Below, piece by piece: positions 35,720 to 56,900 of a DNA stretch of 64,000 bases. The first letter of the stretch is position 1, and each line of letters starts with the position of its first letter. The notes under the pieces were generated by a model, which saw only the letters and a program-made list of their open reading frames with translations, searched no databases and had not been told where the DNA came from. The translations under genes were made by a program, and so were the position numbers. The DNA comes from Arabidopsis thaliana (Eukaryota > Streptophyta > Magnoliopsida > Brassicales > Brassicaceae): positions 20,445,971 through 20,509,970 of the forward strand of contig NC_003070.9 in the NCBI RefSeq assembly GCF_000001735.4, written 5' to 3'.

Positions 35720-38571
35720 ATGGGGACAAAAACCCATAATTCTAGAGGGAAAATCTTCATGATCTATCTAATCCTAGTCTCATTGTCACTTCTAGGTTTG
35801 ATCTTACCTTTTAAACCTCTTTTCCGGATTACTTCTCCATCTTCAACGTTACGGATTGATCTTCCATCGCCGCAAGTCAACAAAAACCCGAAATGGCTTC
35901 GACTCATCCGTAACTATCTACCAGAGAAAAGAATCCAAGTCGGCTTCCTTAACATAGACGAGAAAGAGCGTGAGAGCTACGAGGCTCGTGGACCGTTGGT
36001 ACTTAAGAACATCCACGTGCCGCTTGATCATATACCCAAGAATGTCACTTGGAAGAGTCTTTACCCGGAGTGGATCAACGAGGAAGCTTCTACCTGTCCG
36101 GAGATCCCTCTCCCTCAGCCAGAAGGTTCTGATGCTAACGTGGACGTTATTGTTGCTAGAGTTCCATGTGATGGTTGGTCGGCGAATAAAGGGCTTAGGG
36201 ACGTTTTTAGGCTTCAGGTTAATTTGGCCGCAGCGAATCTAGCCGTCCAAAGTGGGTTGAGGACGGTTAATCAGGCGGTCTACGTTGTATTCATCGGCTC
36301 ATGTGGGCCTATGCATGAGATTTTCCCGTGCGATGAGCGCGTGATGCGCGTGGAGGATTATTGGGTGTATAAGCCTTATCTCCCAAGGTTGAAGCAGAAG
36401 CTTCTCATGCCTGTTGGTTCATGTCAGATTGCTCCTTCATTTGCTCAATTTGGTAAATTAATATTTTTTCCCTCTTTATCTTTGGAGAACTGTTTAAAAA
36501 AAAAAGATTATAACCTTACATTTTGACATATTATCTCACCATTTTGTTTGCATAAATAACAATAATCCTTTATTCTTAACATGTTATATAGATTTCACTT
36601 TTAATTAGTCTTTATAGGTAATGTTCGTAACTTCGTATCTTTTTTCTGGTTAAGTTTTTGGTGAATCATTATTGCTAACTCGTACTTGTTTTTAATGAAA
36701 AGTTGGTAAAACCAATAAGAGTTTAATGGTTGGTGCGATTCATCGTGCCTCACAGTATGCATATATAGTTTTGTTGACGTAATCTGAAGTCTTAACATTG
36801 ATTCTTTTTGCATATTTAAATAGCACACAACCATTGTTTTGTACGTTCACATATGACATTAACATTTTGTGTCCAAAAGTTTTCTAACTAAAATCATTTT
36901 TTTTTTCTACTTTTAGAATTATAGATGTGGATGATAAACAAAACTATCAATTACTTCAAATTGAAGCTGAATGATTAGATTATATTATTGTAGAACACTT
37001 TTAATTAATTTCTGTAAATTCTTTCCGGAAAACCTTTAATAAATATTTATTACAACCAAGATAATAACGTATGTCAACGTGGATATATATACACATTAAT
37101 TATAAATCTTATCATCATAATTAATCATACCCAAATTTAGCTTGAAAACAATTAGGTAGGGATTCAACAACCTTATACCTGCTTACCACAAACCCTACTG
37201 ATTCACCAAATTTCCTCTTTCTACTCTTTCTTTCAACACCTCTATTCAATTTCCATATTCATTATCTCACGTGTACCTTTTGAACTATTACTATTTACAG
37301 GTCAAGAAGCATGGAGACCAAAACATGAAGATAATCTTGCATCAAAGGCAGTCACAGCCTTACCCCGTCGCTTACGGGTTGCCTACGTGACAGTACTACA
37401 CTCGTCAGAAGCCTATGTTTGTGGGGCAATAGCTTTAGCGCAAAGTATAAGACAATCAGGATCGCATAAGGACATGATTCTCCTCCATGATCATACCATA
37501 ACCAACAAGTCTCTTATTGGTCTCAGCGCTGCGGGATGGAATCTCCGGCTAATCGACAGGATCCGCAGTCCTTTTTCGCAAAAAGACTCTTATAATGAGT
37601 GGAACTATAGCAAATTACGTGTGTGGCAAGTAACTGACTACGATAAACTTGTGTTCATAGACGCAGATTTCATCATCCTCAAGAAACTTGATCATCTCTT
37701 CTACTATCCACAACTCTCAGCTTCAGGCAACGACAAAGTGTTATTCAACTCCGGAATCATGGTAATGCAGCCAAATACTGGTCTTAAATTAATTTTACTT
37801 TTTTGGTAAAACGTTCTAAATGATAAAAAATGATATGGTCATCTATATATGTTGACGTATTTGGCCTAAAAATACTAAATATTTTAAACAAAATTCATGC
37901 CACACATCCCTTGAACAGAATTTGTTGAAAATTGGTTTGTTTTTGGTTTGCTGATCAAATATTCTTTTTTTTTTTCTGCCTTAGAAAACAATTTTTTTTT
38001 TTTTTTAAAAAACAAAATTTATATTTTGTGGTTTTCGGGGGAAAAAATGTATTAGCTAAGAATGTACTAATTGTTTTTCTCTTGACATCAGGTTCTCGAG
38101 CCATCGGCATGTATGTTTAAAGATTTAATGGAGAAATCGTTCAAGATTGAGTCATACAACGGAGGAGACCAAGGATTCCTTAATGAGATATTTGTATGGT
38201 GGCACAGGTTATCGAAACGAGTGAACACAATGAAGTACTTCGACGAAAAAAATCATCGAAGACACGATCTTCCTGAGAATGTAGAAGGTCTGCACTACTT
38301 GGGGTTGAAACCATGGGTATGTTATAGAGACTATGATTGCAATTGGGACATTAGCGAACGACGCGTGTTTGCAAGCGATTCTGTGCACGAAAAATGGTGG
38401 AAAGTGTATGACAAAATGTCAGAGCAGTTGAAAGGTTATTGTGGTTTGAATAAGAATATGGAGAAGAGGATTGAGAAGTGGAGAAGAATCGCTAAGAACA
38501 ATAGTTTGCCTGATAGGCATTGGGAGATTGAAGTGAGAGATCCTAGGAAGACGAATCTTCTTGTTCAGTGA
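35720..38571 (+). CDS. GUX4: GUX4 / PGSIP4, GT8 xylan glucuronosyltransferase family
   Basis: Three exons, 35720-36452, 37301-37761, 38092-38571, giving 557 aa. An in-frame ATG at 35624 would extend it by 32 residues, but 35720 (MGTKTHNSRGK) puts the membrane anchor where type II Golgi enzymes have it (about residues 12-31, IFMIYLILVSLSLLGLILPF). The GT8 domain has RVAYVTVLHSSEAYVCGAI, the metal-binding DAD in VFIDADFIIL (D365-D367), NSGIMVLEPS across the last intron, and a C-terminal HYLGLKPW with acidic and basic residues. GUX proteins add glucuronic acid to xylan in the Golgi from UDP-GlcA. GUX1-3 have well-shown roles in the plant; GUX4's role is less clear. All key motifs are kept. Confidence 0.93.
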
Positions 38572-40024: not shown

Positions 40025-40346
40025 ATGTATATGGTTCGGCTAATAACTTTGATAATTCTCTTATTCACTACATCATCAAACACCGTCTTGGCTCGAGTAC
40101 TACACGATTACAAATCTCTAAGCAGAAGTAAGTTTCTACTTTCTAGTAATGAGAATTTCTTCTTTTCTCTCTTTGGTTTTTTATTTAAACATTTGTATTA
40201 AAATTTGTTTTGTTGGAGTAAAAACAGCAGAAGGAGTTTGGGATCAAAAGGTCCTCATGGAAATCAAGGGTGCTGTAGATCATAGTTATTCACCGCGTGC
40301 GGGCCAAAGAGTTGTTCCACCTAAAGTTTCCGAACCCGAAGACTAG
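40025..40346 (+). CDS. Small secreted peptide precursor A
   Basis: Two exons, 40025-40127 and 40228-40346, giving 73 aa. Exon 1 encodes a signal peptide (MVRLITLIILLFTTSSNTVLA) and ends in phase 1 at AA/GTAAGT. The acceptor AACAGCAG is a NAGNAG tandem, so TEGVWDQK or KGVWDQK can both be made in frame. Exon 2 encodes VWDQKVLMEIKG, then a C-terminus with DHSYSPRAGQRVVPP and SEPED. Exon-1 length (103 nt), phase, and the VWxxK motif are shared with the genes at 49142 and 51992. The build (signal peptide, variable middle, short Ser/Pro/Gly-rich end) recalls CEP/PIP signalling peptides, but the CEP core is not clear in this copy. No Cys is present in the mature part. Confidence 0.65.
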
Positions 40347-41549
40347 CGACAACTAATTGGTGGGGTGCAAAACGATCCATTCAACAAGAAACCCAAACCG
40401 AAATCATGGAGTAATCAACCAAAGTGTTGAGTCTTTCTTGAATTTTTTCTTTTCCTTTTATTATGCTAATAATGAAAATCAGTTTTCCTCATGTTTGGGA
40501 AGCAATCTCTACCCTTTTGTATTTCCGTTGCTTTTTGGAATCTTGGATTCTAACTATACTTTTGTAATATTTGTATTAAAAGAAAAGAAAAAAAGAGTAT
40601 AATCTACGATTAGTTCTTTCTAGCTTTAACTGAAACCATCTATTGGTATCAGTACATTGAATATACCATCTTTTCATGTCAAATTCATTACTATTTCACC
40701 TAGAAAGAAAACATTTGTCAAATAAAGGTAGTACGTCGTCTTCCTTATAAAGTAGGGGGCGAGAATGTAAAATGTAGAATCTTAGAGCATCTGCATTGGT
40801 GATCGGTGATCAAAGTGAAGTGTCTTTAGTTCGATTAAAATTTTAATTGATAAATTGTAAAAGTATTAAATCCAATAAGAAGGTTATATGTAGGTAGTAA
40901 GTGTCTTTAAGAGATGTCTTTAGAAATTAAACTAAGATGGACGAAGATTTACCACAAAAATGGTTTCTAAAATCTTAATCTTCTAAAATCATACACCTTA
41001 CAAATCCCTTGTATACTGAGAAACATTTTGGAGAAAAATGTAGAGTGAAACTAAGTAACGATTGCTTGCAAAATAAACAACACACAGTTATAATCGAGTT
41101 CACGGTCTCTAACCGCAACGTTTTGGGGGAAAACTCTTGCTCCCAAGCTTCAGTATATGAAAGAGATAACACACACCACTAACTAATAATGTTGTTCTTC
41201 GTTTTTTTGGTTTACAAAGAAAAAGATACAAGATAAAAGACAACAAAGAAGAAGAGGAATATTCCCATAAGTTATGCCATAGGTGTAAACAATGTACGTC
41301 ACTCAGTGATTGCGAGAATTCAGGTTGGACCTTTTCCAAATACGGGGCTAGGGAGAGAGATAGCTTCTTGACAACTTTTGAGACACTTCTCAGTTGCGAA
41401 GACATATAAAAGAATCCTAATTCATAGACATATATAAGGTAACTTGGAGAGATCTCATTTGTTTGTCCATGGAGTTCCTCATTGCTTGTTTATTACATGG
41501 TTTGCGACAAAGAACAATTTAACAACACAAGAGTTAATACGAGCATGGG
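40347..41549. other. Downstream of peptide A
   Basis: At 40787 the sequence GAGCATCTGCATTGGTG resembles the terminus of the MITE at 52712, but no matching right end was found, so it may be a one-ended remnant. A minus-strand 98-codon ORF (41109-41405, start MSSQLRSVSKVVKK) has no recognisable domain and is not called as a gene. Confidence 0.4.
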
Positions 41550-41805
41550 AAGTGAAAAAGTTGTATTTTATATGCAGAATGTGAAGAAACACGAGACCAT
41601 ATCCCTTCTTATTGTGCCCATATATATACAAAATCTTATCGATCTTAGGAGGTTTTTGCTCTGCCCTATTACCACCCTAGATTGGACGGATATGATTGTT
41701 CACTTCATTACCTCCATGCATAGCAAGCTGGAATTCATCATGATTCGGATGGTGTTTGACACCACGTGTATCATATATACGAACTTGAGGAGGCACTAAC
41801 GTTGT
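41550..41805 (+). pseudogene. LINE ORF2 zf-RVT C-terminal relic
   Basis: One frame reads KKHETISLLIVPIY, LDWTDMIVHFITS, then MIRMVFDTTCIIYTNLRRH. These align by eye with the family pattern ETxxHLFFxCPYS, TDWxxTIxxL, LLRMVFQTTIYxIWRERNxRRH at the end of plant LINE ORF2. Motif residues are eroded and there is no poly-A or upstream RT, so it is an old fragment. Confidence 0.6.
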
Positions 41806-42654
41806 TAACTTAACTCACACCTTATACAATCATTGTTAAGGAATTTTGTCTCTTTAAACTACAAGACATGCATTAGTTGGAAGGACTCATATGTCCCATT
41901 TTCGTAGTGATAATGACTACTTAGTTGCCACACCTCTAGTTTGTGATCGGATCTATTTTAGGTGTCTTTCAAAGTTTGGTTTTGCTTTAATTGTTATTCT
42001 TTAATTCCACTCCTCTACGTGGTTTTTTTGTTGAATGATAATTTTGAAATTTCAAGGAAGTAAAATAAAAATATATATTGGGAACAATGAGTAATTGAAA
42101 AAAAAAAACACAAAAAACCAAAACATAGCTTCGCCTGAGACGATGGGTAACGATTATGATCATTTTTCATGTATATAAACGGCACTCTATTAAAAATGCA
42201 TATAATGATAAATACATGGCATACGTTTTTGAGAGATAAATAAGTGAGTACAACATAGGTTATAAGTTCAATAAAGAAGAGGAAATTGTAGATATAAATA
42301 TCTTTAACCTCCTAAGATAATGTAACATGGCTGCGTCGATAAAATTGTAGATATAACGATTATGATCATTAAACATGAATCCCTGTTTTGAAAGTTCATC
42401 AAGACAAAAAAAAATGTATTAGCAATAAGTAAGCAATTATGAGGTATCCCCATCGAATGGAGATGATCATTATTTAAGAAATAGATAATTTATATACCTA
42501 TTTATATTTTCGAAGAACTACTTTATTAATACATATGATCCATCATATGCAACCCATGTTATAAGCAAATATAAAATTTATTATCTATTTTTTTTGTTGT
42601 TTTCGTACTTGAACTAGTCATAATAAACAGGATCACACAAACATAGGGAAAGTT
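41806..42654. other. AT-rich intergenic
   Basis: No gene or repeat with clear borders. The short sequence around ATTATGATCA occurs at both 42153 and 42359. Confidence 0.35.
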
Positions 42655-44190
42655 TTGAAAAATGTTTTTTTTTTTAACAATAGCTTTTCTCAAAAATACC
42701 CCATACCAAAATATTTTTAAAAATGCATCTCAATGTACAGTGGCTGAACCTCCAAATCATCCTTTATAAAACCTTTTATTTTTTTAAAAATAAACAATAA
42801 ATTTTGATTTTATAAGCATCTTTAGAAAACCTTCAAATATCTTTATAAAACCTTGTAAAAATGTTATAACTGAAAATGAATTGCGTTTGGTTGTAATTGT
42901 GCAAACGATTAGAGTAATTTGTAAAGAGGGCCATTTTAAAAATTTCCTAAGGAAAGATATATTTTATATTTAAAGGAGATTTGCAAAACTACCTTTTTTT
43001 TACTATCCTTTTGTAACAATACCCTTTTATGTTGTCCATTTTTAAAAATACCCCTTCCCTTAAACAAAATGACCAAATTACCCTCATCTAATAGAAACAT
43101 GCAATTGGAAACTAAACTTTTCCCGCCAATTTTTTTGCGCCAATTTTTTTTTTCCCCGCTAAAACAAAGTTTCCCGCCAAAAAACAAATTCCCGCCAATT
43201 TTGTTTTTCGTAACAAATTTTTCCTCAGCCAAAAAAATGATTTTAAAAATCCTTGTAAATATTTTTTGGCGGCAAATTGATTTACAAGGGATTTTAAAAG
43301 GATTTTAAAAGATTTACAAGAGATTTTAAAAAGGTTTTAAAAGATTTACAAGAGATTTTAAAAGAGTTTTAAAAGATTTACAAGAGATTTTAAAAGGGTT
43401 TTAAAAAATTTACAAGTAATTTTAAAAGGTTTTGAAATCCCTTGTAAATCTTTCAAAACACTTTTAAACCCTTTAAAAATCTTTACAAATCTTTTGTAAA
43501 TCTTTTAAAGCCCTTTAAAATCCCTTGTAAATATTGTAAAACCTTTTTAAAATCCCTTGTAAATATTTTAAAATCCTTTTAAAACAATTTTAAACCCTTT
43601 AAAAATCTTTAAAAGACCTTTGTAAATCTTTTAAATCCCTTTAAAATCTCTTGTAAATCTTTTAAAACCCTTTTAAAATCTCTTGTAAATCACCCTTTTA
43701 AAATCCCTTGTAAATCTTATAAAACCCCTTTAAAATCCCTTGTAAATCTATTTCCCGCCAAAAAAATAAATTGGCGGGAAAAATATTTTTGAAAACAAAA
43801 TTTGGCGGGAATTTTTTTTCGAAAAGTTTTGGCGGGAAATTTTTTTTCGAAAATTTTGGGCGGGAAAATTTTGGCGGGAAATTGATTTTGGAATATTTTA
43901 GGCGAAAAAATATTAATATTTCATTTTGTTAACCTAAAACAATTCTAAATAAGGGTAAAATGGTCATTGAAAATTTAAAGAGGGTAAAAATAAAAATGGA
44001 TAAAACAAAACGGTAGAGTTGAAAAGGAGCATCATGAAAAGGGCATTAGAAAGAATTTTTCTATATTCAAAATGATTATTAAAAAAATATTTACCTTGGT
44101 TCTTTAAAAAAAAAAATTTACCTTTGATATATGATTTTTAGAGTATTTCTAAAACAATATGAGATATTTCTGAAAAACCTAAATATGAAT
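42655..44190. mobile_element. Non-autonomous foldback DNA element, possibly MULE-type, perhaps nested
   Basis: The left part (about 42978-43090: TTTGCAAAACTACC, ACTATCCTTTTG, CCATTTTTAAAAATACCC, ATGACCAAATTACCC) and the right part (about 43935-44060) are inverse copies at moderate identity. Between them are GGCGGGAA/TTCCCGCC blocks in opposite orientation and a core of TTTACAAGAGATTTTAAAAG units. A weaker outer pair of inverse ends (CTCAAAAATACCCC near 42690; complement near 44140-44190) hints at one element inside another. No transposase is seen. The AAATACCC-type ends resemble Arabidopsis Mutator-like elements; family assignment is tentative. Confidence 0.55.
43270..43750. repeat. Satellite-like core array in two opposed orientations
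   Basis: From 43270 to about 43425 the 30-bp unit reads GATTTACAAGAGATTTTAAAAGG-like. From about 43430 to 43750 the same unit appears as its complement (CCTTTTAAAATCCCTTGTAAATC-like). The whole would fold as a long, imperfect hairpin. GGCGGGAAA blocks flank it on the right and TTCCCGCC on the left. Confidence 0.85.
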
Positions 44191-44245
44191 TAAATTTTTA
44201 ATTTTTTGACTAAACTAGTAATTGAATGGCCTAATATATAACTCT

Positions 44246-45305
44246 TTACAAAATAAATGTTACTCTCTTATTTTGCTTCTCAATTAATTTATAGAAGCTA
44301 TGCATGGAATGTAATAAGTTACCTTGTGCAGCCTTTTGCTTCTTGCGCCTCCGATGAATTAAGTATAGAACACAAAGGATAACAATAGCTGCGGCTATGA
44401 CTCCTACAGCTGTTCCAATTGTTTTGCCTTTACTTTTTTTTTTCTTTTGGGTTTTCTTGCTCTTCTCTTTTTTCTTCTTCGAACCTGCAAATTTATTGAG
44501 TTTATTTATATATCAAAAGGTTTGAGATTATGACTAATTGATCTAAAAATAATAGAATCAAGCAAGTTTTTGTAGTCTAGAGAAGAGTTTACTCTTGACT
44601 GAACGTCGCTTAGGAACTTCTTCATTCACAGCAACTTTTGAGCCATCGACTAGAGCTTGAAGACTTCGAGTTTTTCCAAGATCTTCAACAACAATAATCG
44701 ATGATCCTTGATCATTGGTAACCACAAGAAATGATTCATCTTCTTGTCTAAACAGAGTGAAAGCAAAACAATATCACGCTTGTTTCAAACACAAATTAAT
44801 TTGAGACAGTTTAAAACATTTAAAAGGCTTTTTAATTATATTCTATTATATATAATTTAATAAATCTTTATTATTAACAATGGTTTGAAAACATAAATTA
44901 TAGTTTATTGGGAAAAGGGTATTATAAAACAATTAAATTTTATATATTTTGGTTGATACAATATATAAAATAGTTTATATTCTTATTATACATATATCAA
45001 TATTTGTATTTATGTTTAATATATTAATTCCCAATAGGCTATAGATTTTGTAATTACGTACTTAATAATATGATAGATCGGAAAGATCGATGAGAATAAA
45101 TATATAATGAATACCTTTATAAATTTTTTTTGGATAACCTTTATATATTCTATATAACTTATTTTTCAATAATAGATATTTGCATGATTATGAGGTGCTC
45201 TTACTTTGAAAAAGCAGCTCTTGTGGAAAGAGAATATCCGAAAGCTACATAGAGAGAACCTAGTAGTACGAGGAGGAAGATGAGAGGAAAGTTGGTGGAA
45301 GCCAT
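44246..45305 (-). CDS. Small single-pass membrane protein with signal peptide
   Basis: Three exons on the minus strand, 45205-45305, 44593-44747, 44246-44484, join in frame to 164 aa. A possible donor at 44333 (GCACAAG/GTAACT) means a further exon might exist and the last 28 residues may be intron. Residues 1-24 are a signal peptide (STNFPLIFLLVLLGSLYVAFG). An acidic luminal part (QEDESFLVVTNDQGSSIIVV) leads to a Lys-rich stretch (about 86-107), then a membrane helix IGTAVGVIAAAIVILCVLYL (108-129) and a basic HRRRKKQK tail. Topology would be type I. I do not recognise the family. Support is the splice-consistent frame and protein-like layout. Confidence 0.6.
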
Positions 45306-45811
45306 TGCCTTTTGTTTTGCCAATGTGAGAAATATTTGTTGTATGAAAAAAAGAAAGAAGACTTTGGTATATATAGTAATTTTTCAACTTACATATTTGT
45401 CTCTACTTACTATTTTTTATTAATCAACTACAAATTATATACTCAGATAGTTAGGTGTTATTTGCGGCTGTCTTTTTTATTTTCCTTTAGTAGCTTATAT
45501 AGGCTGTCTTCATTTGACTTTAAAAGTTTCTTTGATTTTAAAATGTAATAGTATATAACAATGACAAAAACATATCGGTTTTAATACAACATGTAATAAC
45601 ATAAGTAGCACCTAAAAGCTTTGGTCTGATTTGATTATTAATGAAATGCTTGCAAATTTTATAATATGATGTAGTCTGAAACAAAATGTGTTGTAATGGG
45701 TTGCAAGTCGTCAAGTTCCCTGTATTTTATCCATTCTAAAGTTTGAGCAAATTATGAATTTTTATATATTTAAACTTTTTTTTATCATAAATAACGCTTT
45801 GCAGAACTAGT

Positions 45812-45849
<38 letters not shown>

Positions 45850-46505
45850 TTGGAGAAAAATCAATATTGCTTAAGGTCACGATAAAAAATAAATAAATAA
45901 ATGAAAAACTGAGGGCCACATTTTATTTAAATTTATAAATTTAATTAGGGCTATGTAATTTAGTGATATATTACAAATGTATATATATGTTACATGTTTC
46001 GTCTGTTTGTTTGAGATTCGTAACGTCACCATACAAGTTGATCGATTGGCTATTACATTTGATGATGTAGTTTATTAGAAAATCAATTATCTATGTTTAG
46101 TGAACGATTATAGAGGAAAATCAATAATATATGTTTTTCGAATTATATTAGTATATGTTTTTATTATCACCATTTGTACATTTAATTAGAAACAATATTA
46201 TGATTACTTTTTTCTGGTCTTAGAAATGGTACATTTGTTTTATCGTAGTCTTTATTAGGCACGACACTAACCGAGATGATCTGTACTCACTAAAGAAGTT
46301 TTAGATATGGTCTATAGTCTTTGTGGTCGATGTAGGAGTTTGAGGAGGAAGACTTGTAGTAGATTTACATGGGTGCAAGTATGACTTCCGCTGTAAATAT
46401 TTATAAGATATGTTTTGTTAAAGAGCAACTCTATTGGGAAAATAAACAAAAATGATATATTTTAAGGGACTTGTTTGTACCGTATTTATTTCTATCTTTC
46501 CATTT
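45306..46505. other. AT-rich intergenic with (AT)n
   Basis: A dinucleotide (AT)n tract lies at about 45809-45847. Otherwise nothing recognisable. Confidence 0.5.
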
Positions 46506-46865
46506 TTACTAGGAGTGGGCATTCAGGTAAGCGGGTCAGGTTTGGATAAAATCCGATCGAGTACGGGTTTTTTGGGTAGAGAAGTTTAGGATCCAATAGG
46601 ATAAATCTAAAATATCGGTTCGGTTTCAGTTCGGGTCTAATCGGATTCAGGTCGGTTTGGGTCGGTTTGGGTCGGTTCGAGTATAAATTTTTGGGCTCTT
46701 TTCTAGAACCGATACCCGAATTTTTGTGTAAATATCCAGATTTTTTGGGTAAATATCCGAATTTTTGGATAAAATTTAATTTTTTTCAAATAAAATATTC
46801 GAATATTTTCGGATATGGGTTCGTGTCGAGTTTGGATTCGGGTCAGGTTCGGGTCGGGTAAAGGA
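46506..46865. repeat. GGGTCGGTTTGGGTCGG-type dispersed repeat
   Basis: Starts AGGAGTGGGCATTCAGGTAA and ends GGGTCAGGTTCGGGTCGGGT. It holds many short CGGGT/TTCGG units and inverse CCGATACCCGAA. This composition is typical of degraded short DNA elements dispersed in Brassicaceae; no clear TIR or target repeat. Confidence 0.5.
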
Positions 46866-46921
46866 ATTTAGGATCCAATGAATAAATCTTCAGTTTCAGG
46901 TCTAATAAAATACCATTAATT

Positions 46922-47035
46922 ATGGTGATAAACGCCGATAAAGTACCATACTGGTGATAAACGCCGATAAAGTACCCTAAATTACCTATATTGGTGATAA
47001 ACGCCAATAAAGTACCATAACTTATGGTGATTATA
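46922..47035. repeat. Three-unit tandem repeat GGTGATAAACGCCGATAAAGTACC
   Basis: Cores of GGTGATAAACGCC(G/A)ATAAAGTACC occur near 46924, 46952 and 46992, with a partial TATGGTGATTATA at the end. Spacing is uneven. Confidence 0.75.
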
Positions 47036-48132
47036 TATACTGCAAAATCATTGACCAGTATAGCATGACCAAGCTAAACATCACATTAAATATAATTGTA
47101 CATAAGAGTCATTATCACACACCGAACCTAATCTCGCCACACTACAGAGAGGCTGACATGCGACTCACATGTTAGGAGTTCCACCAACTCAGGTCAGATA
47201 ACCCAGTACTAAACAAATTTACATTTGGTCAACCCTATAAATACTTCCACATTTCCCACAAATATTTAGGAAAAATCTTTTTTCTACACAACAAGCTACT
47301 TATAATACCTTAAACACGAAACCCCAGCACCGGAGATACTACCTTAAATGCTTATACTCTTCCAACTTTGTAAAAGCTTACAAAATGGCAGGCTAAACCA
47401 TGGACAATCCTCAATCCAACATATATAATTAAACTCTCTTTTCCACATTCCTTCATGTTATCTAATATTGATGTCTTAGTTCATACTTATGTTATTACAA
47501 GATTATGAGCACACAAGAAATTTCATGACGTTTGGCAATGTGCCTAATCCTCAATAATTTTCAATAGAAAATCTTACACCAAGCTTTGCCTAAATGGAAT
47601 TATTCGACACTAAGACACCCCTTAGTTCGACATCAACAAATTCTAATGAACTTGAGACTTAGATTAACACCTAATCTAAGAATCACTCTCTTTTTCTCAA
47701 GAGCAAATGCTCAACCCTCTCAAGTTTTTCTCTCCTTGACGGCTCTACCAGAAACCTAACATAGCATTTCTCTATTTATTCTCAGAGATCACGTTACCAC
47801 CAACAGTAAATGAAAATATCCTTTTTGTAAACTAACAACTATTACGTTTTGATGTTACTTCCAAATATATTTCCTTTGATATGAAACTATATATCCACAT
47901 ACATATAGATGGCAAACTCTACTCTCCAATAGAATTGTGCCACGTCAGCCTCGTTTTTTTGCTGAAATGTTTTAGTGCATCCTGTTATACTTTGTACTTT
48001 CAACTTAAGCGTTGGAGAGTTTTTTGAATAACACATGATCTTCATCTAGCACTTCCCCAAGAATTTTGTACACAAGGTAACTAAAAACCTTTAATAAGCT
48101 AATTTGTTTTATTCTTACAAAACCAGGCATCT
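47036..48132. other. Gene-free tract, perhaps LTR-like
   Basis: A TATA-like CTATAAATACTTCC at about 47236, followed by a leader-like stretch, hints at a decayed LTR. No ends, primer site or coding part could be fixed. No gene is supported. Confidence 0.3.
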
Positions 48133-48148
48133 AAAAAGATTGTTTTGA

Positions 48149-48874
48149 CATATTATGGCGTGGAAAAACTGACATATTCAAACCTTCTTTCTCGACAAAA
48201 GACACATGGAATCATCTTAGAACAACGTCTCTCACCGTCACTTGGCACAAAGGCGTTTGGTTTACTCATGATACTCCAAAGTTCTCGTTTTGTGTCTGGT
48301 TGGCAGCTCATAATAGATTACCAACGGGGGATCGAATGATGAAGTGGATTGGTGGCGCAACGGGAACTTGTGTACTTTGCGATAACAACATCGAGACTAG
48401 AGATCACCTTTTTTTCTCTTGTCCCTTTGTTTCAGAAATCTGGGCAGTGATAGCAAAAGGCATCTTCAAGGATAAGTATTCTACGGATTGGTCACAGCTT
48501 CTCGATCACGTCTCAAACGCAAACCAAACTCAGCTTGAAAGCTTCCTCTCTCGGTCTGCGTTTCAAGCTACTGTCTACACCATTTGGGGGGAACGGAACG
48601 GGAGAAGACACGGGGAGGAACCACACTCCACAACTCTTCTCACGACTTGGATCGACAAGCATATTAGAAACAAGATTTCCACTATAAGAAGGATGGGGGA
48701 TAGGCGGTATGATGAGGCTTATCAAGCTTGGCTCATTTCTCGGACTTAAGTTCTTTTTTTCTTCTTTCTCAAAGATCTTCTTCATAAACTTATTTCAACC
48801 TTACGAAGCACTTCGTTGTAACACCGACTATTTTTTCTTTTGAGTATAATTTAACATTAGATTCAAAAAAAAAA
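48149..48874 (+). mobile_element. 5'-truncated LINE insertion with target-site duplication
   Basis: A 726-bp insertion flanked by the direct repeat AAAAAGATTGTTTTGA (48133-48148 and 48875-48890). It begins inside ORF2, runs in one open frame to the stop at 48749, has a 3'UTR of about 115 bases, and ends in a poly-A run. The frame encodes the C-terminal zf-RVT region: TKDTWNHLRTTS, WHKGVWFTHDTPKFSFCVWL, AAHNRLPTGDRMMKW, CVLCDNNIETRDHLFFSCPF, then TVYTIWGERNGRRH. The perfect flanks and open frame make it young. It lacks RT and endonuclease and is dead on arrival. Confidence 0.92.
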
Positions 48875-49141
48875 AAAAAGATTGTTTTGAAATTGCAACT
48901 AAATACGCTAATTTTGCATTAAAAATACGTGTGTTCTTGTTTTCATTGTAATTAATATTTATATAAATTGTCAATCACAATAGTGATGATAATCATTAAT
49001 TAATTAAGATAATTAATATTTTCAAAATCAGAGAGGAAAAGTAATACTAACATACGTAACCTGAGCTCATTCCTCCCTATATATGTATATGTATTACCAG
49101 ATTTACGTTAAAATATTCATAATACAGATTAACGAAAAAAA

Positions 49142-49462
49142 ATGAACAACGCGGTGATTTGGTTAATTACTTTGGTATTTCTAATGTTCTCTGCAACGTC
49201 AACCAGAATTGTGGCACATATACCATACATATTTCCAAAGACAAGTAAGTTTTCTAAACCTCACAAAACTTTATGAATTTTCTTTTGGTTACAATATTCA
49301 AAATTAATTAGTTCTTGTTGTTATTTTTTAAATATTGGGGAAGAAACAAGAGAAGCGGTTTGGGGTCAAAAGATAATGAGAGTGAAAGATTCATCTCGGA
49401 GGCAGTACTTCACAGCATGCACCTGGATCCGTTGGATCATCCCACCAGCCAATAAGCCCTAG
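49142..49462 (+). pseudogene. Small secreted peptide precursor B, probably decayed
   Basis: Exons 49142-49244 and 49353-49462 would give 70 aa. Exon 1 (103 nt, phase 1) encodes a signal peptide (AVIWLITLVFLMFSATSTRI) and HIPYIFPKT, very like copy C. Exon 2 opens with AVWGQKIMRVKD. Relative to copy C a net 2-nt difference just after this shifts the frame. The expected C-terminal motif survives only in another frame (STSQHAPGSVGSSHQP), while the actual frame reads RRQYFTACTWIRWIIPP. Either the peptide motif is lost or it has been replaced. The upstream CCTCCCTATATATG TATA region is shared with copy C. Confidence 0.6.
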
Positions 49463-50992
49463 CCACGATCCCATGTATTTTGATAATTTCAAGTCTTTTA
49501 TCTTTATGTGGAACATTACTCTCGTTTTAGTATCACATGCAATTTAAACTAGTCGCAAATAATATTCTTGCGTTAAAAATTAGAAGATCGGTGATTGTTG
49601 GGTTTCGGATCACAAGGTGAAAAGGGAGATAAGGGTATTGTCAAATTTAATTGAAACTATAGTTACACTACTTTTGTAAAACATGTATGTGGAGGGATGG
49701 ATACACATGTGTGTATATATCACGTAATTATTTTTTTATTTTTCCATCTCACATATTTGCAAAGCATGTATATTTGTAAATGATGCTACAATATTTATGG
49801 TTTGTGGTAGTTGTTTCTTCTCAATAAATGTGGTAATTATGTAAGTTTAGCCATTGCGAGTAATTATGCATACACATCATTTTTCGGTTGGTTTTTTCTA
49901 CTGACCTTTTAATTTAATAAGATAATATTTTAGTTGTCTATATGCAATTCTTCAACTTCAATATTAGAAAGCTTAAAAAATCGTACACTAGAGATTAAAA
50001 ATCAGCTTCTCCAAGAGTGTATCCGTTAGTTCTTTCAATTGCAGAGAACATTCATCACACAGTACGAAAAGGGCATCTACGAGTTCAGATTTTAAAAAGA
50101 TTTTGCAAATCAGGAGAAATTTTTGGGTTTTGGCAGGACCAAGTCATTGCTCGAGTGTGTCATCTTGCGCGTGATGGATATAATTTGCAATACAAAAGAA
50201 ATATTATTTTTATATAAATCATTACAAGTATTTTTAATTCATAGAATTCAAACGACTGATGAGTTATATCACAACGAAACAAAACAAAAACTGGAATTTG
50301 TTTTTTACAAATCCACGCGGTGCTTGTATAGATGAACAAAGGTTCTTTAACTCTGAAGCGCGTTTTATTCAATGCATAAGTTTTTGTTTAAACTTCTGAC
50401 GTTTGGACTTGTCATTGTGACTTCTCCACAGAAGAACTATTAAATTAAGAAAAAGATGTTTGACTTGTATAGAAGACTTGGTAAACTAGAACTTCTATAG
50501 GAAAGAGAATTATCCTCTATAAAGAAATATTCATTAGTTGACACGAGATTAAAATACATAATATTGTAGCTAAATTAAGAAAAAGAAATTTCTAAATCTT
50601 CTTTCTTACATTTTTATTCGTAAAAGTTTCTTTGACAAATATTTACTATATAACATGAAGATTAATATAACTTATAAAATATTCCAAATATTTATATTCC
50701 TTATCACAATAATCTAATATATAAAGACAATAAAAGAAAATTATAATACAAATTTTTTATTGAAAATGAGTTCATCCTCGACATGGCGGGGGATCATAAC
50801 GTAGAACACACAATTTTAGTATTAAGTAAAAATGAAACATAAAATAAGTAAGGGAAAACATACCATTTTCCTTTCACGGCTCTCAAATGTCATTGCACCC
50901 GTGTTGTGTGTTGGTACCGCCATATCGTTGTTGTCCTTCATATTCTTTGAGTTTGTGTGTGAAAGGAACTGTGTCTCCTACATACTCCAATA
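49463..50992. other. AT-rich intergenic
   Basis: A short mixed ORF near 50017-50217 has no recognisable domain. Otherwise empty. Confidence 0.4.
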
Positions 50993-51365
50993 TTAAATGA
51001 AGCCTTTCCAAACTTCACCGTTTAAATCCTTTGGCAGCTTCTTCACTTCTATCCAGTTTTGCTTCCACTCGTACAAATTGTTTTTGTATAGGAGGCCATT
51101 GTTTGGCTCAAGAACTCGGCACGTACGCGATTCGTATGTTTTGACTTCCAATTGAAATCTTGCTACGAAATAAAATTAGAAAACATATATTAGACGATGT
51201 CTAAGTAAAAGTAGTTTTAATGAAAAACAAAATATAATGTCTACTTACCACAAAGATTTTGTACCATGTCTCTTTCACATCATTTGGAAGGTGTGGAGAT
51301 TGCGGATATGGACTTGAATGGTGATTATAATTTTTTTTGTTTTGGAATAGACTTGGTGATGCCAT
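50993..51365 (-). pseudogene. Unclassified spliced ORF or gene remnant
   Basis: On the minus strand an ATG at 51365 opens MASPSLFQNKKNYNHHSSPY, reading to KETWYKIFV before a good donor (GTG/GTAAGT, about 51250). About 70 bases on, after an acceptor TTTCGTAG, a frame with RFQLEVKTYESRTCRVLEPN, LYEWKQNWIEVKKLP and NGEVWKGFI runs to a stop at 50993. The two pieces do not join in the same frame with the sites I can see, so this is either broken or needs another splice site. I do not recognise the family. Confidence 0.3.
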
Positions 51366-51991
51366 TTTTTTTTGTCTAAACCTACAATATGGAAATAATA
51401 TACATTCTTTTTCTTTTTTGGGTCTATGTCTGTATATTCTTTTAGGCCAGAAACCATGGTCTTTTATATAGTCTCTTCCCAAGTATTACTCGAACTGGCA
51501 ACGTCGAAATTTTGTTTATGAATTTTTGTGAGTTAAGGTATTGACAATTGATAATAGTATTAAAATTGTTAATGTAAAAAAAAACGATGTTAAAAATTAA
51601 CTGAAAACCGAATCAATTACTAGTCGCTCCATCTTTTTTTTAAGAGAATATGGTTAGTTATTGAAAGATGATTCTTTATTGATCATAAGTGGCAAGGTAC
51701 AATAGAAATCATATCTTAAGTTTCTCGTAAAAGTAAAAACACCACAACTGAACTTCAAAGAGAAACGAAAAGACCAGTTAAGACAAATTTTAGAACGCCT
51801 CAAGCGTGGAACTGTCTTTGGTGATACGTCATACCGCCTTTATTGACAATTCTTAAGCCACCCTATGTTGTCAAATATATGTTGAACCATCTGTATTGAC
51901 AATTTTTACTGATACAATAAAGAAGGTATCACCTTCCTCCCTATATATACAGAGTTACGTTAAGAAATTCCTAATACAGATTAAGGGAAAA
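51366..51991. other. Upstream region of peptide C
   Basis: AT-rich. The TATA-like CTATATATACAG at 51942-51953 and the following TACGTTAAGAAATTC..TAATACAGATTAA match the corresponding leader of copy B (49078-49135). Confidence 0.5.
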
Positions 51992-52293
51992 ATGAATAAA
52001 GCGTTGGTTTGGTTAATTACATTGTTATTTCTAATATTCTCTGCAACACCAAACAGAGTTTTGGCCCATCCACCATACATATCTCCAAAGACAAGTAAGT
52101 TTATAACACTGACAAACTACATGAATTTTCTTTTGCTTATGAATATTCATAACTAATCAGTTCTTGTTGTTATTGCAATATTGGGAAAGGAGCAAGAGAA
52201 GGGGTTTGGGATCATAAGATAATGAAAGTGAGAAAGATTGGAGTTGGAGCCAGTAACTCAGGGCATTCACCTGGAGCCGGCGGCATCCCCTAG
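51992..52293 (+). CDS. Small secreted peptide precursor C, CEP/PIP-like
   Basis: Two exons, 51992-52094 and 52199-52293, giving 65 aa. Exon 1 is 103 nt, phase 1, and encodes a signal peptide (LVWLITLLFLIFSATPNRVLA) and HPPYISPKT. Exon 2 encodes KGVWDHKIMKVRKIG, then the C-terminus VGASNSGHSPGAGGIP. SGHSPGAGG resembles the CEP core (PGHSPGxGH) and, less closely, the PIP core (SGPSxxGxGH); both are known secreted, proline-hydroxylated plant signals read by LRR receptor kinases. The usual final His is absent and the peptide ends GGIP. It is the best-preserved member of the three-gene family and shares promoter and leader sequence with copy B. Function is inferred from form alone. Confidence 0.65.
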
Positions 52294-53488: not shown

Positions 53489-53952
53489 ATTGTAAAGAAA
53501 TCTCTAATATATTTATGAAGATTATATTATACATTATATTTTGATTATGGATATTAACGTGCATTTTCTGGAAGTAAGCTTTAAAATTGCAAAAAATATA
53601 ACCGGTAATTGATTGGTATAATTGTATTATAGAAAAACCTTTTAACCTTTTTTTATAAATACTTATAAAGTTATAATAATTTAAATATACTTTTCAAAAA
53701 ATCTTTATAGTTCAAGGCTTTTTGTTTTCTTGCAAATTTCTCTTCAATAAATTAACAGTTTATGCTTATTTTTTTTCTTTCTATATATTATTTTCATCGT
53801 TTCTCATGGAATATACTTTTAAATTATTAAAATTTTGAAAATGGAATCTTCTCCCCCTTTTTCCCCAACGCTCTCATCGTCATAGAAATCTGAAATTCGC
53901 CAAAGCCATCGTAGAAAAGTGGAGAAGAAGAATCTCTTCGCAACCATTTCAA
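53361..53952. other. ANP2 upstream region with (AT)n
   Basis: (AT)n at about 53448-53486. The ANP2 leader starts somewhere after 53850. Confidence 0.5.
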
Positions 53953-56900
53953 ATGCAAGATCTCTTCGGTTCAGTTCGCCGCTCACTTGTCTTCCGTTCT
54001 ACCACCGACGATGAGAATCAAGAGAATCATCCTCCTCCGTTTCCTTCTCTCCTCGCCGATAAAATCACTTCCTGTATCCGCAAATCAATGGTTTTCGCCA
54101 AATCCCAGTCACCTCCGAATAACTCCACCGTACAAATCAAACCTCCGATTCGGTGGCGGAAAGGTCAGTTAATTGGCCGTGGCGCTTTTGGTACTGTGTA
54201 TATGGGAATGAATCTCGATTCCGGTGAGCTTCTCGCCGTTAAACAGGTTAGTTTGAGTTTGAAATTGTTATCCGGTTTACTGATTCTGATTTTGAAATTA
54301 GCGTCACTTTAATGGTTCTTATTTGTCATTAATGGAATCTATAGGCTTAATCACAGATTTCTACTTCGTTTTTGGTTTTGGTTGTCACTGTATTTAGTTT
54401 CAGATTGATTATGGTCAGATTTTGGAATTCAGGGTTTTAAGCTCTTAGACTTGTTTTTGAATCTTTTTCTCAGGTTCTGATTACATCTAATTGTGCATCC
54501 AAGGAAAAAACTCAGGTTCATAAACAAGCCTATTTGTTTCTTGTTGATATTGTGCTACATTTTTTTTACATTACATGACTTTCTTATTTTGGTGAACAAA
54601 AGGCTCATATTCAGGAGCTTGAAGAGGAAGTGAAGCTACTCAAGAATCTCTCTCATCCAAATATAGTTGTAAGCAATAACGTTATTGTTTTGTTGCAATG
54701 CTGATTGATTCAGTGTGTTTGTGTTTTCTTTTTTATAACTTTTGCATTCTTTGTTTGGCCTTAGAGATATTTGGGTACGGTGAGGGAAGATGAAACTTTG
54801 AATATCTTGCTTGAATTTGTTCCTGGTGGATCTATATCTTCACTCTTGGAGAAATTTGGAGCCTTTCCTGAATCTGTAAGTCGCTCTGTTGAAAAACTAT
54901 TGGGTTTCCTGAAATGTTGATGATGGTAACATCTTTAAACTGTTTGAAAAAGGTTGTTCGGACATACACGAACCAACTGCTTTTGGGATTGGAGTACCTT
55001 CATAATCATGCCATTATGCACCGTGACATTAAGGTACCTATTGTTGTATCTTTGCGTTTAAAATATCTCGTATCCTTGCCCTGCTTATCTGAGGTTCTTC
55101 TATTCTCACTTTCTCAGGGTGCTAATATCCTTGTGGATAATCAAGGATGCATTAAACTTGCTGATTTTGGTGCGTCCAAACAGGTAGCGGAGTTGGTAAG
55201 TCAATTTTTAGTCTCCAACTTCTACTTCAGTAAAACCATTCTGCTCTCAGTTTTCTAGTCTTATTCAAGTTTTTCATATAATATACTCCTTATCATGATT
55301 TCGATTAATATACTTGAGTTTTCTCTAGGCTACTATTTCGGGTGCCAAATCTATGAAAGGAACTCCCTATTGGATGGCTCCAGAAGTTATTCTTCAAACC
55401 GGGCATAGCTTGTAAGCATTACTTCAAACATGTTTGTAATTGCTAGGTTACATGCTTTGTCGCCAATCTAATATTACCTTGGTTATTCTATGCAGTTCTG
55501 CTGATATTTGGAGTGTAGGATGCACAGTGATTGAAATGGTGACTGGAAAAGCTCCTTGGAGCCAGCAATATAAAGAGGTACTTAATTTTGTATGCCTTGT
55601 TATCTATGAATAATTCTGTTTCTTGAACTTCTGTGGATATATATTCTTTTCAGATTGCTGCTATTTTCCACATTGGAACGACGAAATCGCATCCTCCAAT
55701 CCCTGACAATATCTCCTCTGACGCAAATGATTTTTTGCTCAAGTGTCTGCAGCAGTACGTTACTTTAAACTCATAAATTAATATTAACTTATGTCACTTC
55801 TTTTGCTTCTTGTCTTGTTGATTGCTGAAACACTGTCCTGTCTTGGCAGGGAACCAAATCTGCGGCCAACCGCTTCTGAGCTGCTAAAGGTGAAATGGTC
55901 AACAGAGTAAATGAAATCCAATCAGGTCTCATATTTCAATGAGTCATAAATGTTATTGCTTTTCTTTTATTGGCAGCATCCATTTGTTACGGGCAAACAG
56001 AAGGAATCTGCGTCTAAAGATCTTACTTCATTTATGGTGAGTTCACATTATCCATCTATAGAATATCATTTTAGTTTTTACTTAAGGACTTTTGATAGGA
56101 TATCTCTTTGGGTACAAATTTTCAGGACAATTCATGCAGTCCTTTACCATCAGAGTTGACTAACATTACGAGCTAGTAAGTGCTGAGGTGAAACCAAAAC
56201 TTTTAAGCTGAATTTCTGACTGCTGATCGTTTTCTTTCTTTTTCTTTCTTACAGTCAAACATCTACGAGTGACGATGTAGGAGACATCTGTAACTTGGGT
56301 AGTCTGACTTGTACACTTGCTTTCCCTGAGAAATCAATCCAAAATAACAGTTTGTGTCTGAAAAGTAATAACGGGTATGATGACGATGATGATAATGATA
56401 TGTGTTTGATTGACGATGAGAATTTCTTGACATATAATGGAGAGACTGGCCCTAGTCTTGACAATAATACTGATGCCAAGAAGGTAATCTTCTGTGTGAT
56501 TAACCTTTCTCATCTATATTTCAGATGATTTTTCGAATAATTAAACCATTTTCGGTTTCATATTATTTCAATACAGAGCTGTGATACCATGAGTGAGATC
56601 TCTGATATTTTGAAGTGCAAATTTGACGAAAATTCTGGAAACGGAGAAACAGAGACGAAAGTTAGTATGGAAGTTGACCATCCATCATACTCGGAGGATG
56701 AAAATGAGCTGACTGAGTCGAAAATCAAAGCTTTCTTAGATGACAAGGTGGCTCATTGATAATGTTATGTTTCCTCATTGCATTTATATTCTACTCAGAA
56801 GTTTATAAACATTGACTTGGTTGTGAAATATCTTAATCGTAGGCTGCAGAGTTAAAGAAGTTACAGACGCCTCTGTACGAAGAATTCTACAACGGTATGA

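Follow-up and report, generated by a model that had tools for sequence, protein, structure and literature searches.

Three secreted-peptide copies on chromosome 1 of Arabidopsis thaliana: two probable PROSCOOP-type genes and a frame-shifted duplicate

Three small copies, here called A, B and C, lie in a 64-kb window of Arabidopsis thaliana chromosome 1 (C1:20445971-20509970, the whole stretch of DNA analysed; copy positions are given in window coordinates), and a first-pass annotation had read them as a family of three genes for secreted signalling peptides with an end like that of the CEP and PIP peptides. To which kind of peptide do they belong? We think it likely that A and C are genes of the PROSCOOP type, each encoding a SCOOP epitope that would act via the receptor kinase MIK2, and that B is a frame-shifted duplicate.

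Exon structure of the three copies

The two-exon plan of the first-pass annotation holds at 40025, 49142 and 51992, where each copy has an ATG start, a 103-nt exon 1 and a phase-1 donor, AA/GTAAGT. Judged by its sequence, each exon 1 codes for a hydrophobic core and a VLA-like end, in agreement with the proposed signal peptide; the introns, put earlier at about 100 nt, measure approximately 91-111 nt depending on the acceptor, and exon 2 opens with the motif described, as GVWDQKVL in A, AVWGQKIM in B and GVWDHKIM in C. An exon-1 profile of six rows, A, B and C included, matched the copies within the window at E-values of 1.7e-22 (B), 5.2e-22 (C) and 1.7e-17 (A), the next window match having an E-value of 0.5. 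The features of the two intact copies are as follows.

40025..40127, + strand: copy A exon 1, signal peptide, 103 nt, phase-1 donor AA/GTAAGT, exon-1 profile E 1.7e-17
40128..40227, + strand: copy A intron, with the acceptor at the family's usual AG site (40226-40227)
40228..40346, + strand: copy A exon 2, stop TAG at 40344-40346, precursor of 73 aa
40272..40310, + strand: copy A predicted SCOOP 13-mer AVDHSYSPRAGQR, SxS reading SYS, mature ends predicted
51992..52094, + strand: copy C exon 1, signal peptide, 103 nt, matched by the exon-1 profile
52095..52198, + strand: copy C intron, ending at 52189, 52192, 52198 or 52201, all in frame
52199..52293, + strand: copy C exon 2, stop TAG at 52291-52293, precursor of 64-68 aa by acceptor
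52240..52278, + strand: copy C predicted SCOOP 13-mer GVGASNSGHSPGA, SxS reading SNS, tail GGIP, mature ends predicted

Alternative AGs in A, for example at 40218, 40230 and 40233, preserve the frame. In both C and B the usual family acceptor AG has been changed to CAA (sites 52187-52201 and 49341-49355), so that C must use a neighbouring AG; of the intron previously given for C as 52095-52198, the start stands and the end is only one of four frame-keeping possibilities. Both precursors are free of cysteine, that of A having PKVSEPED as its C-terminal residues and that of C having its terminus SNSGHSPGAGGIP (SPGAGGIP) directly ahead of the stop codon.

The three copies are not equally intact, which had been overlooked: A and C are whole genes, whereas B is frame-shifted ahead of the peptide motif.

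49142..49244, + strand: copy B exon 1, signal peptide, 103 nt
49245..49352, + strand: copy B intron, end approximate, as AGs ending at 49343, 49352 and 49355 share one frame
49353..49462, + strand: copy B exon 2 in the VWGQK frame, SxS lost, stop TAG at 49460-49462
49392..49430, + strand: copy B epitope remnant HLGGSTSQHAPGS, out of frame

Just before the epitope, exon 2 of B is two bases shorter than that of C (GAGAGT--GAAAG against GAAAGTGAGAAAG), and as a result the VWGQK frame of B enters YFTACTWIRWIIPPANKP, which is its end, and the epitope lies in the other frame. Among 12 AGs tried as the acceptor of B, only 49401 gives an open epitope frame, but it skips the VWGQK segment. B is 80% identical to C across query positions 1-298 of 302 nt; the similarity runs through exons and intron and extends on one side into a short piece of promoter that carries a TATA-like site and on the other into some of the 3' flank. 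On this comparison B is best called the frame-shifted member of a tandem pair, a duplicate related to C, and because its epitope is out of frame through a two-base difference in the reference genome it is probably a pseudogene.

Approximately 0.4 kb upstream of B, a 204-codon open frame (window 48135-48749, + strand) carries a zf-RVT domain (Pfam, E 1.8e-24). This frame is probably a remnant of the long interspersed nuclear element (LINE) type and may bear on the tandem duplication of B and C.

A wider family with a serine motif at fixed distance

The family is not confined to three genes, as had been supposed. When C, A and three paralogs served as protein queries against the same genome, at least 13 copies came to light; the 13 gathered are A, B and C together with ten at seven other loci.

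Chr1:13.836-13.854 Mb: three copies
Chr2:10.286 Mb: one copy
Chr4:18.392-18.393 Mb: two copies
Chr5 at 9.834, 14.203, 20.504 and 20.905 Mb: four single copies

Two weak matches with one stop each, at Chr2:4.99 Mb (E 0.137) and Chr5:7.206 Mb (E 1.76), were discarded by eye. A midpoint-rooted tree built from 11 proteins places A and C with the Chr4:18.39 and Chr5:14.20 Mb copies (97/95), with the inner order left unresolved. The three other Chr1 copies would correspond to AT1G36622-AT1G36640. Genes of that range are named as SCOOP-like in PMC8448819.

The exon-1 donor is phase-1 at 94-103 nt in 12 of the 13 copies; since exon 1 measures 103 nt in only nine of them, that length is no hallmark of A, B and C. 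The acceptor is likewise recurrent, an AG ending 11 nt ahead of the TGG of VW in eight of 12 copies that could be anchored on the W. Five rows were aligned first, and in these exon 2 is invariant at W, at two K and at both S of SxS. An open W-x14-S-x-(S/T), which places the serine and the following S or T at W+15 and W+17, occurs in 12/13 copies within the 610 nt that follow exon 1, B being the exception, while the reverse strand gave 0/13 and random window pieces 85/2000; this count starts from exon 1 and is fairer than an earlier anchor that required S at W+15. One copy has threonine in second place (SCT), and several paralogs contain cysteine, some of them within SxS. The earlier claim that these are precursors of small secreted signalling peptides is thus backed both by the anatomy of the genes and by the wider family.

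Two paralogs deserve separate mention. The tandem second Chr4 copy (Chr4:18392993-18393460) is without an open exon-1 donor, yet its exon 2 reads EERVWDKIVIKEIKIDVGGSNSRRAGQG. The paralog at Chr5:14.2024-14.2028 Mb (- strand) ends in RGSTSGSAGQGH, which combines SxS with a GxGH end (AGQGH) like that of CEP and PIP peptides.

SCOOP, CEP or PIP

SxS is the motif that characterises SCOOP peptides (SERINE RICH ENDOGENOUS PEPTIDES; PMC8448819, PMC11331138), a minority of which have T in second place as SxT (PMC11331138). The motif is present in A as SYS and in C as SNS, and absent from B in its VWGQK frame. For comparison, we located a PROSCOOP cluster at Chr5:17.952-17.992 Mb (40 kb) via two SCOOP10 peptides, both of which were detected by tandem mass spectrometry (MS/MS) in leaf apoplast (PMC9784617). 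Many exons of this cluster read GRRLM...SxS...G-rich, and the gene plan resembles that of the window genes, whose phase-1 intron after a signal-peptide exon accords with the two-or-three-exon structure of PROSCOOPs. In the cluster, a phase-1 GTTAGT donor follows after 106-121 nt in five of the seven signal-peptide ORFs kept (12 start codons were examined, and two internal starts and three judged not to begin signal peptides were set aside), and an AG precedes the dibasic codons by 2 or 8 bases, in matching register, in all nine SCOOP exons examined of the 11 listed. A and C share with PROSCOOPs the signal-peptide exon, the phase-1 intron, a small precursor, a C-terminal SxS epitope and the occurrence of tandem clusters in Arabidopsis. 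The first 14 PROSCOOPs have precursors of 72-117 aa without cysteine (PMC6382344); A, at 73 aa, is inside this range and C, at 64-68 aa, below it.

Resemblance is also detectable around the motif itself. An exon-2 profile of five rows of the window family was run across both the window and the 40 kb of the Chr5 cluster, and its top six non-family matches, although weak (E 0.051-2.2), were all in the cluster, four being SCOOP exons, one unclear and one on the opposite strand; the first non-family match in the window came at E 6. When the SxS flanks of the 13 epitopes were compared with 11 cluster 13-mers, with the serines held fixed and B taken in its other frame, the summed score was 233 against 81.8 +/- 24.4 for shuffles, and 0/3000 shuffles reached it; the 11 cluster pieces were chosen by eye, with their register set by the G/A content of the tail, and as the 13 epitope rows are paralogs this does not amount to 13 independent tests. 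The 13-mer of A is identical at 6/13 positions to the cluster 13-mer PVRSSQSSQAGGR, both serines and the last R among them, and the epitope of the Chr5:14.20 Mb paralog is identical at 7/13 to the cluster epitope DFEGSISGQAGGG. PVRSSQSSQAGGR would be SCOOP12, and A keeps an R at the position matching the last arginine of that peptide. Loss of this arginine makes SCOOP12 inactive (PMC7846792). STMP4, with one residue of the SxS motif missing, failed to inhibit root growth (PMC8448819), a result that bears on B because B is without an in-frame SxS.

Within the same cluster we observed a pair of similar signal-peptide exons, at Chr5:17962042-17962146 (- strand) and 17964439-17964543 (+ strand), which read MATKTSN...AK(H/R)LQ, are 71% identical and possibly represent another secreted-protein family. 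Frames rich in proline, which contain RRKL and SRS motifs, occur at Chr5 17964920 and, more distant, at 17954157.

A number of observations weigh against assigning A and C to the PROSCOOPs. The exon-1 profile found no detectable similarity over the Chr5 cluster, with nothing better than E 2.8, and as such the signal peptides give no link between family and cluster. The GRRLM with which the cluster's epitope exons open is missing from A and C, which have VWDxK instead. Taken singly, the rows of the flank test gave p-values of 0.006-0.38, with 7/13 above 0.05 (A 0.058, C 0.020), and an unrestricted local comparison with SCOOPs gave p 0.18 for A, p 0.075 for C (score 35) and a span of 0.005-0.762 over the rows. 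The published epitope is a serine- and glycine-rich stretch of 13 residues, preceded by a putative protease cleavage site (PMC7846792), and the cleavage of SCOOP12 is dibasic (PMC8448819); C, with three S and four G in its 13-mer, has R-K immediately ahead of the epitope as its sole dibasic pair, and A has two S and one G, a tail poorer in glycine than those of the cluster SCOOPs, and no dibasic pair before its epitope. W-boxes are not enriched in the 1 kb upstream of the copies (one in A, none in B, one in C, against 1.22 per kb window-wide). Of the same import are a score of C against CEP that exceeds its score against SCOOP, and the values for exon 2 of the closest pair of paralogs and for exon 1 of B and C, both of which are given below.

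Selection was examined by comparing nonsynonymous with synonymous changes, as proportions (pN/pS) or as distances (dN, dS). Pooled pN/pS was 0.65 for exon 1 (66 overlapping pairs); for exon 2, where the first-pass annotation had proposed such a check, a comparison run among paralogs gave 0.82 (55 overlapping pairs), pointing to weak constraint. The closest pair (Chr1 13.839 and 13.854 Mb) has dN 0.014 and dS 0.205 in exon 1, and dN 0.098 and dS 0.060 in exon 2, and exon 1 of B and C has dN 0.171 and dS 0.192. On these values, from small counts, exon 1 seems to be under constraint across the family, exon 2 weakly so, and B and C not visibly.

The earlier placement with CEP- or PIP-type genes, acting via CEPR or RLK7-like receptors, does not fit the conserved features of the family. 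PIPs have an SGPS core and a GxGH end, and CEPs a C-terminal SPG(I/V)GH (PMC4526919). A, B and C have none of these, and what the family conserves is SxS, set at a constant distance from W; the three copies resemble PIP and PIPL precursors in being small and secreted, and CEP precursors in this and in having a C-terminal peptide. The likeness of the end of C to the CEP core, also claimed earlier, is strong: C shares GHSPG-G with CEPs (GHSPGAG against GHSPGVG), and in a local comparison with 12 CEP domains from the same genome it scored 42, above its SCOOP score of 35, with 0/400 shuffles reaching it. This core is, however, confined to C, none of the other copies having SPGAG. The Chr5:14.20 Mb paralog, with its AGQGH end, has a weak CEP score (p 0.045), and the remaining 11 rows gave p of at least 0.195. 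The window genes also have an intron before the epitope, whereas 16 CEP-like matches sit in open frames of 82-276 residues, with a stop inside in 2/16, and these frames fit, without proving, intronless genes at that place. We thus rejected CEP membership on motif and local scoring, though C alone scores well, and PIP membership on motif only, as a joined CEP and PIP query matched via its CEP half and no PIP locus was compared; a CEP or PIP identity appears highly improbable.

Two other explanations were weighed. All three copies could be decaying relics, functionless today, which would be compatible with a PROSCOOP origin and would account for the out-of-frame B, the loss of the usual acceptor AG from B and C, the nearness of dN to dS in their first exons and the second Chr4 copy without an open exon-1 donor; but in A and C the signal peptide, the donor and the reading frame are preserved, as are W, the two lysines and SxS, A retains the family acceptor as well, and we regard general decay as unlikely. 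An orphan family of secreted peptides that arrived at SxS on its own and acts via some receptor different from MIK2 would suit both the signal-peptide exon, not detectably similar to those of the Chr5 cluster, and the VWDxK in the place of GRRLM. Against it, the arrangement of exons, the intron phase and the position of the epitope match the cluster, the pooled epitope flanks are closer to it than shuffles, and published PROSCOOPs themselves diverge outside SxS (PMC11331138), so that independent origin seems very unlikely. It is a highly speculative suggestion that the VWDxK copies form a separate PROSCOOP lineage, processed at a signal of their own instead of GRRLM, in which C would carry a hybrid epitope (SxS and GHSPGAG) that both MIK2 and a CEP receptor could read.

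Gene neighbours and significance

The three genes are flanked upstream by a glycosyltransferase-8 ORF at 37156-37809, found in a Pfam scan of the window ORFs, and downstream by kinase ORFs at 53839-54312 (under Pfam's cut-off) and 54893-55258. The former would fit GUX4 and the latter ANP2. A and C match no Pfam family.

If A and C are PROSCOOP-type genes, exon 1 would give a signal peptide with which the precursor (~64-73 aa) would enter the secretory pathway, as expected from the published family, and exon 2 would give a short conserved pro-segment, VWDxK...K, followed by the SxS SCOOP epitope. Apoplastic proteases would then release a peptide of approximately 13-15 residues, again following the published family, and by analogy with described SCOOPs (PMC8448819, PMC7846792, PMC11331138) the two serines of the freed peptide would bind the leucine-rich repeat (LRR) receptor kinase MIK2, with recruitment of BAK1. 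Reactive oxygen species (ROS), calcium and mitogen-activated protein kinase (MAPK) signals may follow, leading to immune or growth outputs as in the published family.

The number of PROSCOOPs known in Arabidopsis has grown from 14 to 23, 28 and 50, the last at 19 loci, with 1,097 in the Brassicales (PMC11331138), and the window genes may well be among the 50 already published. We found no literature tying these loci to SCOOPs by At1g5495-, At4g3961-, At5g5145- or At5g361-type names, which were guessed from position. At1g54926, a locus not placed relative to A, B and C, is listed as 'Unknown' in an embryo-sac table (PMC2246279). For the VWDxK type, the first-pass phrase of a poorly described subgroup may be apt.

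Our verdict is that A and C are ordinary members of a known peptide kind, a large described family of plant immune signals, and the picture of plant peptide signalling is unchanged by them. With the candidates moved from CEP and PIP to SCOOP and MIK2, the fitting assay becomes one that follows ROS or root growth and asks for dependence on MIK2. In the reference genome one copy is out of frame, and the VWDxK sub-type raises the question of how PROSCOOP precursors without a GRRLM site are processed.

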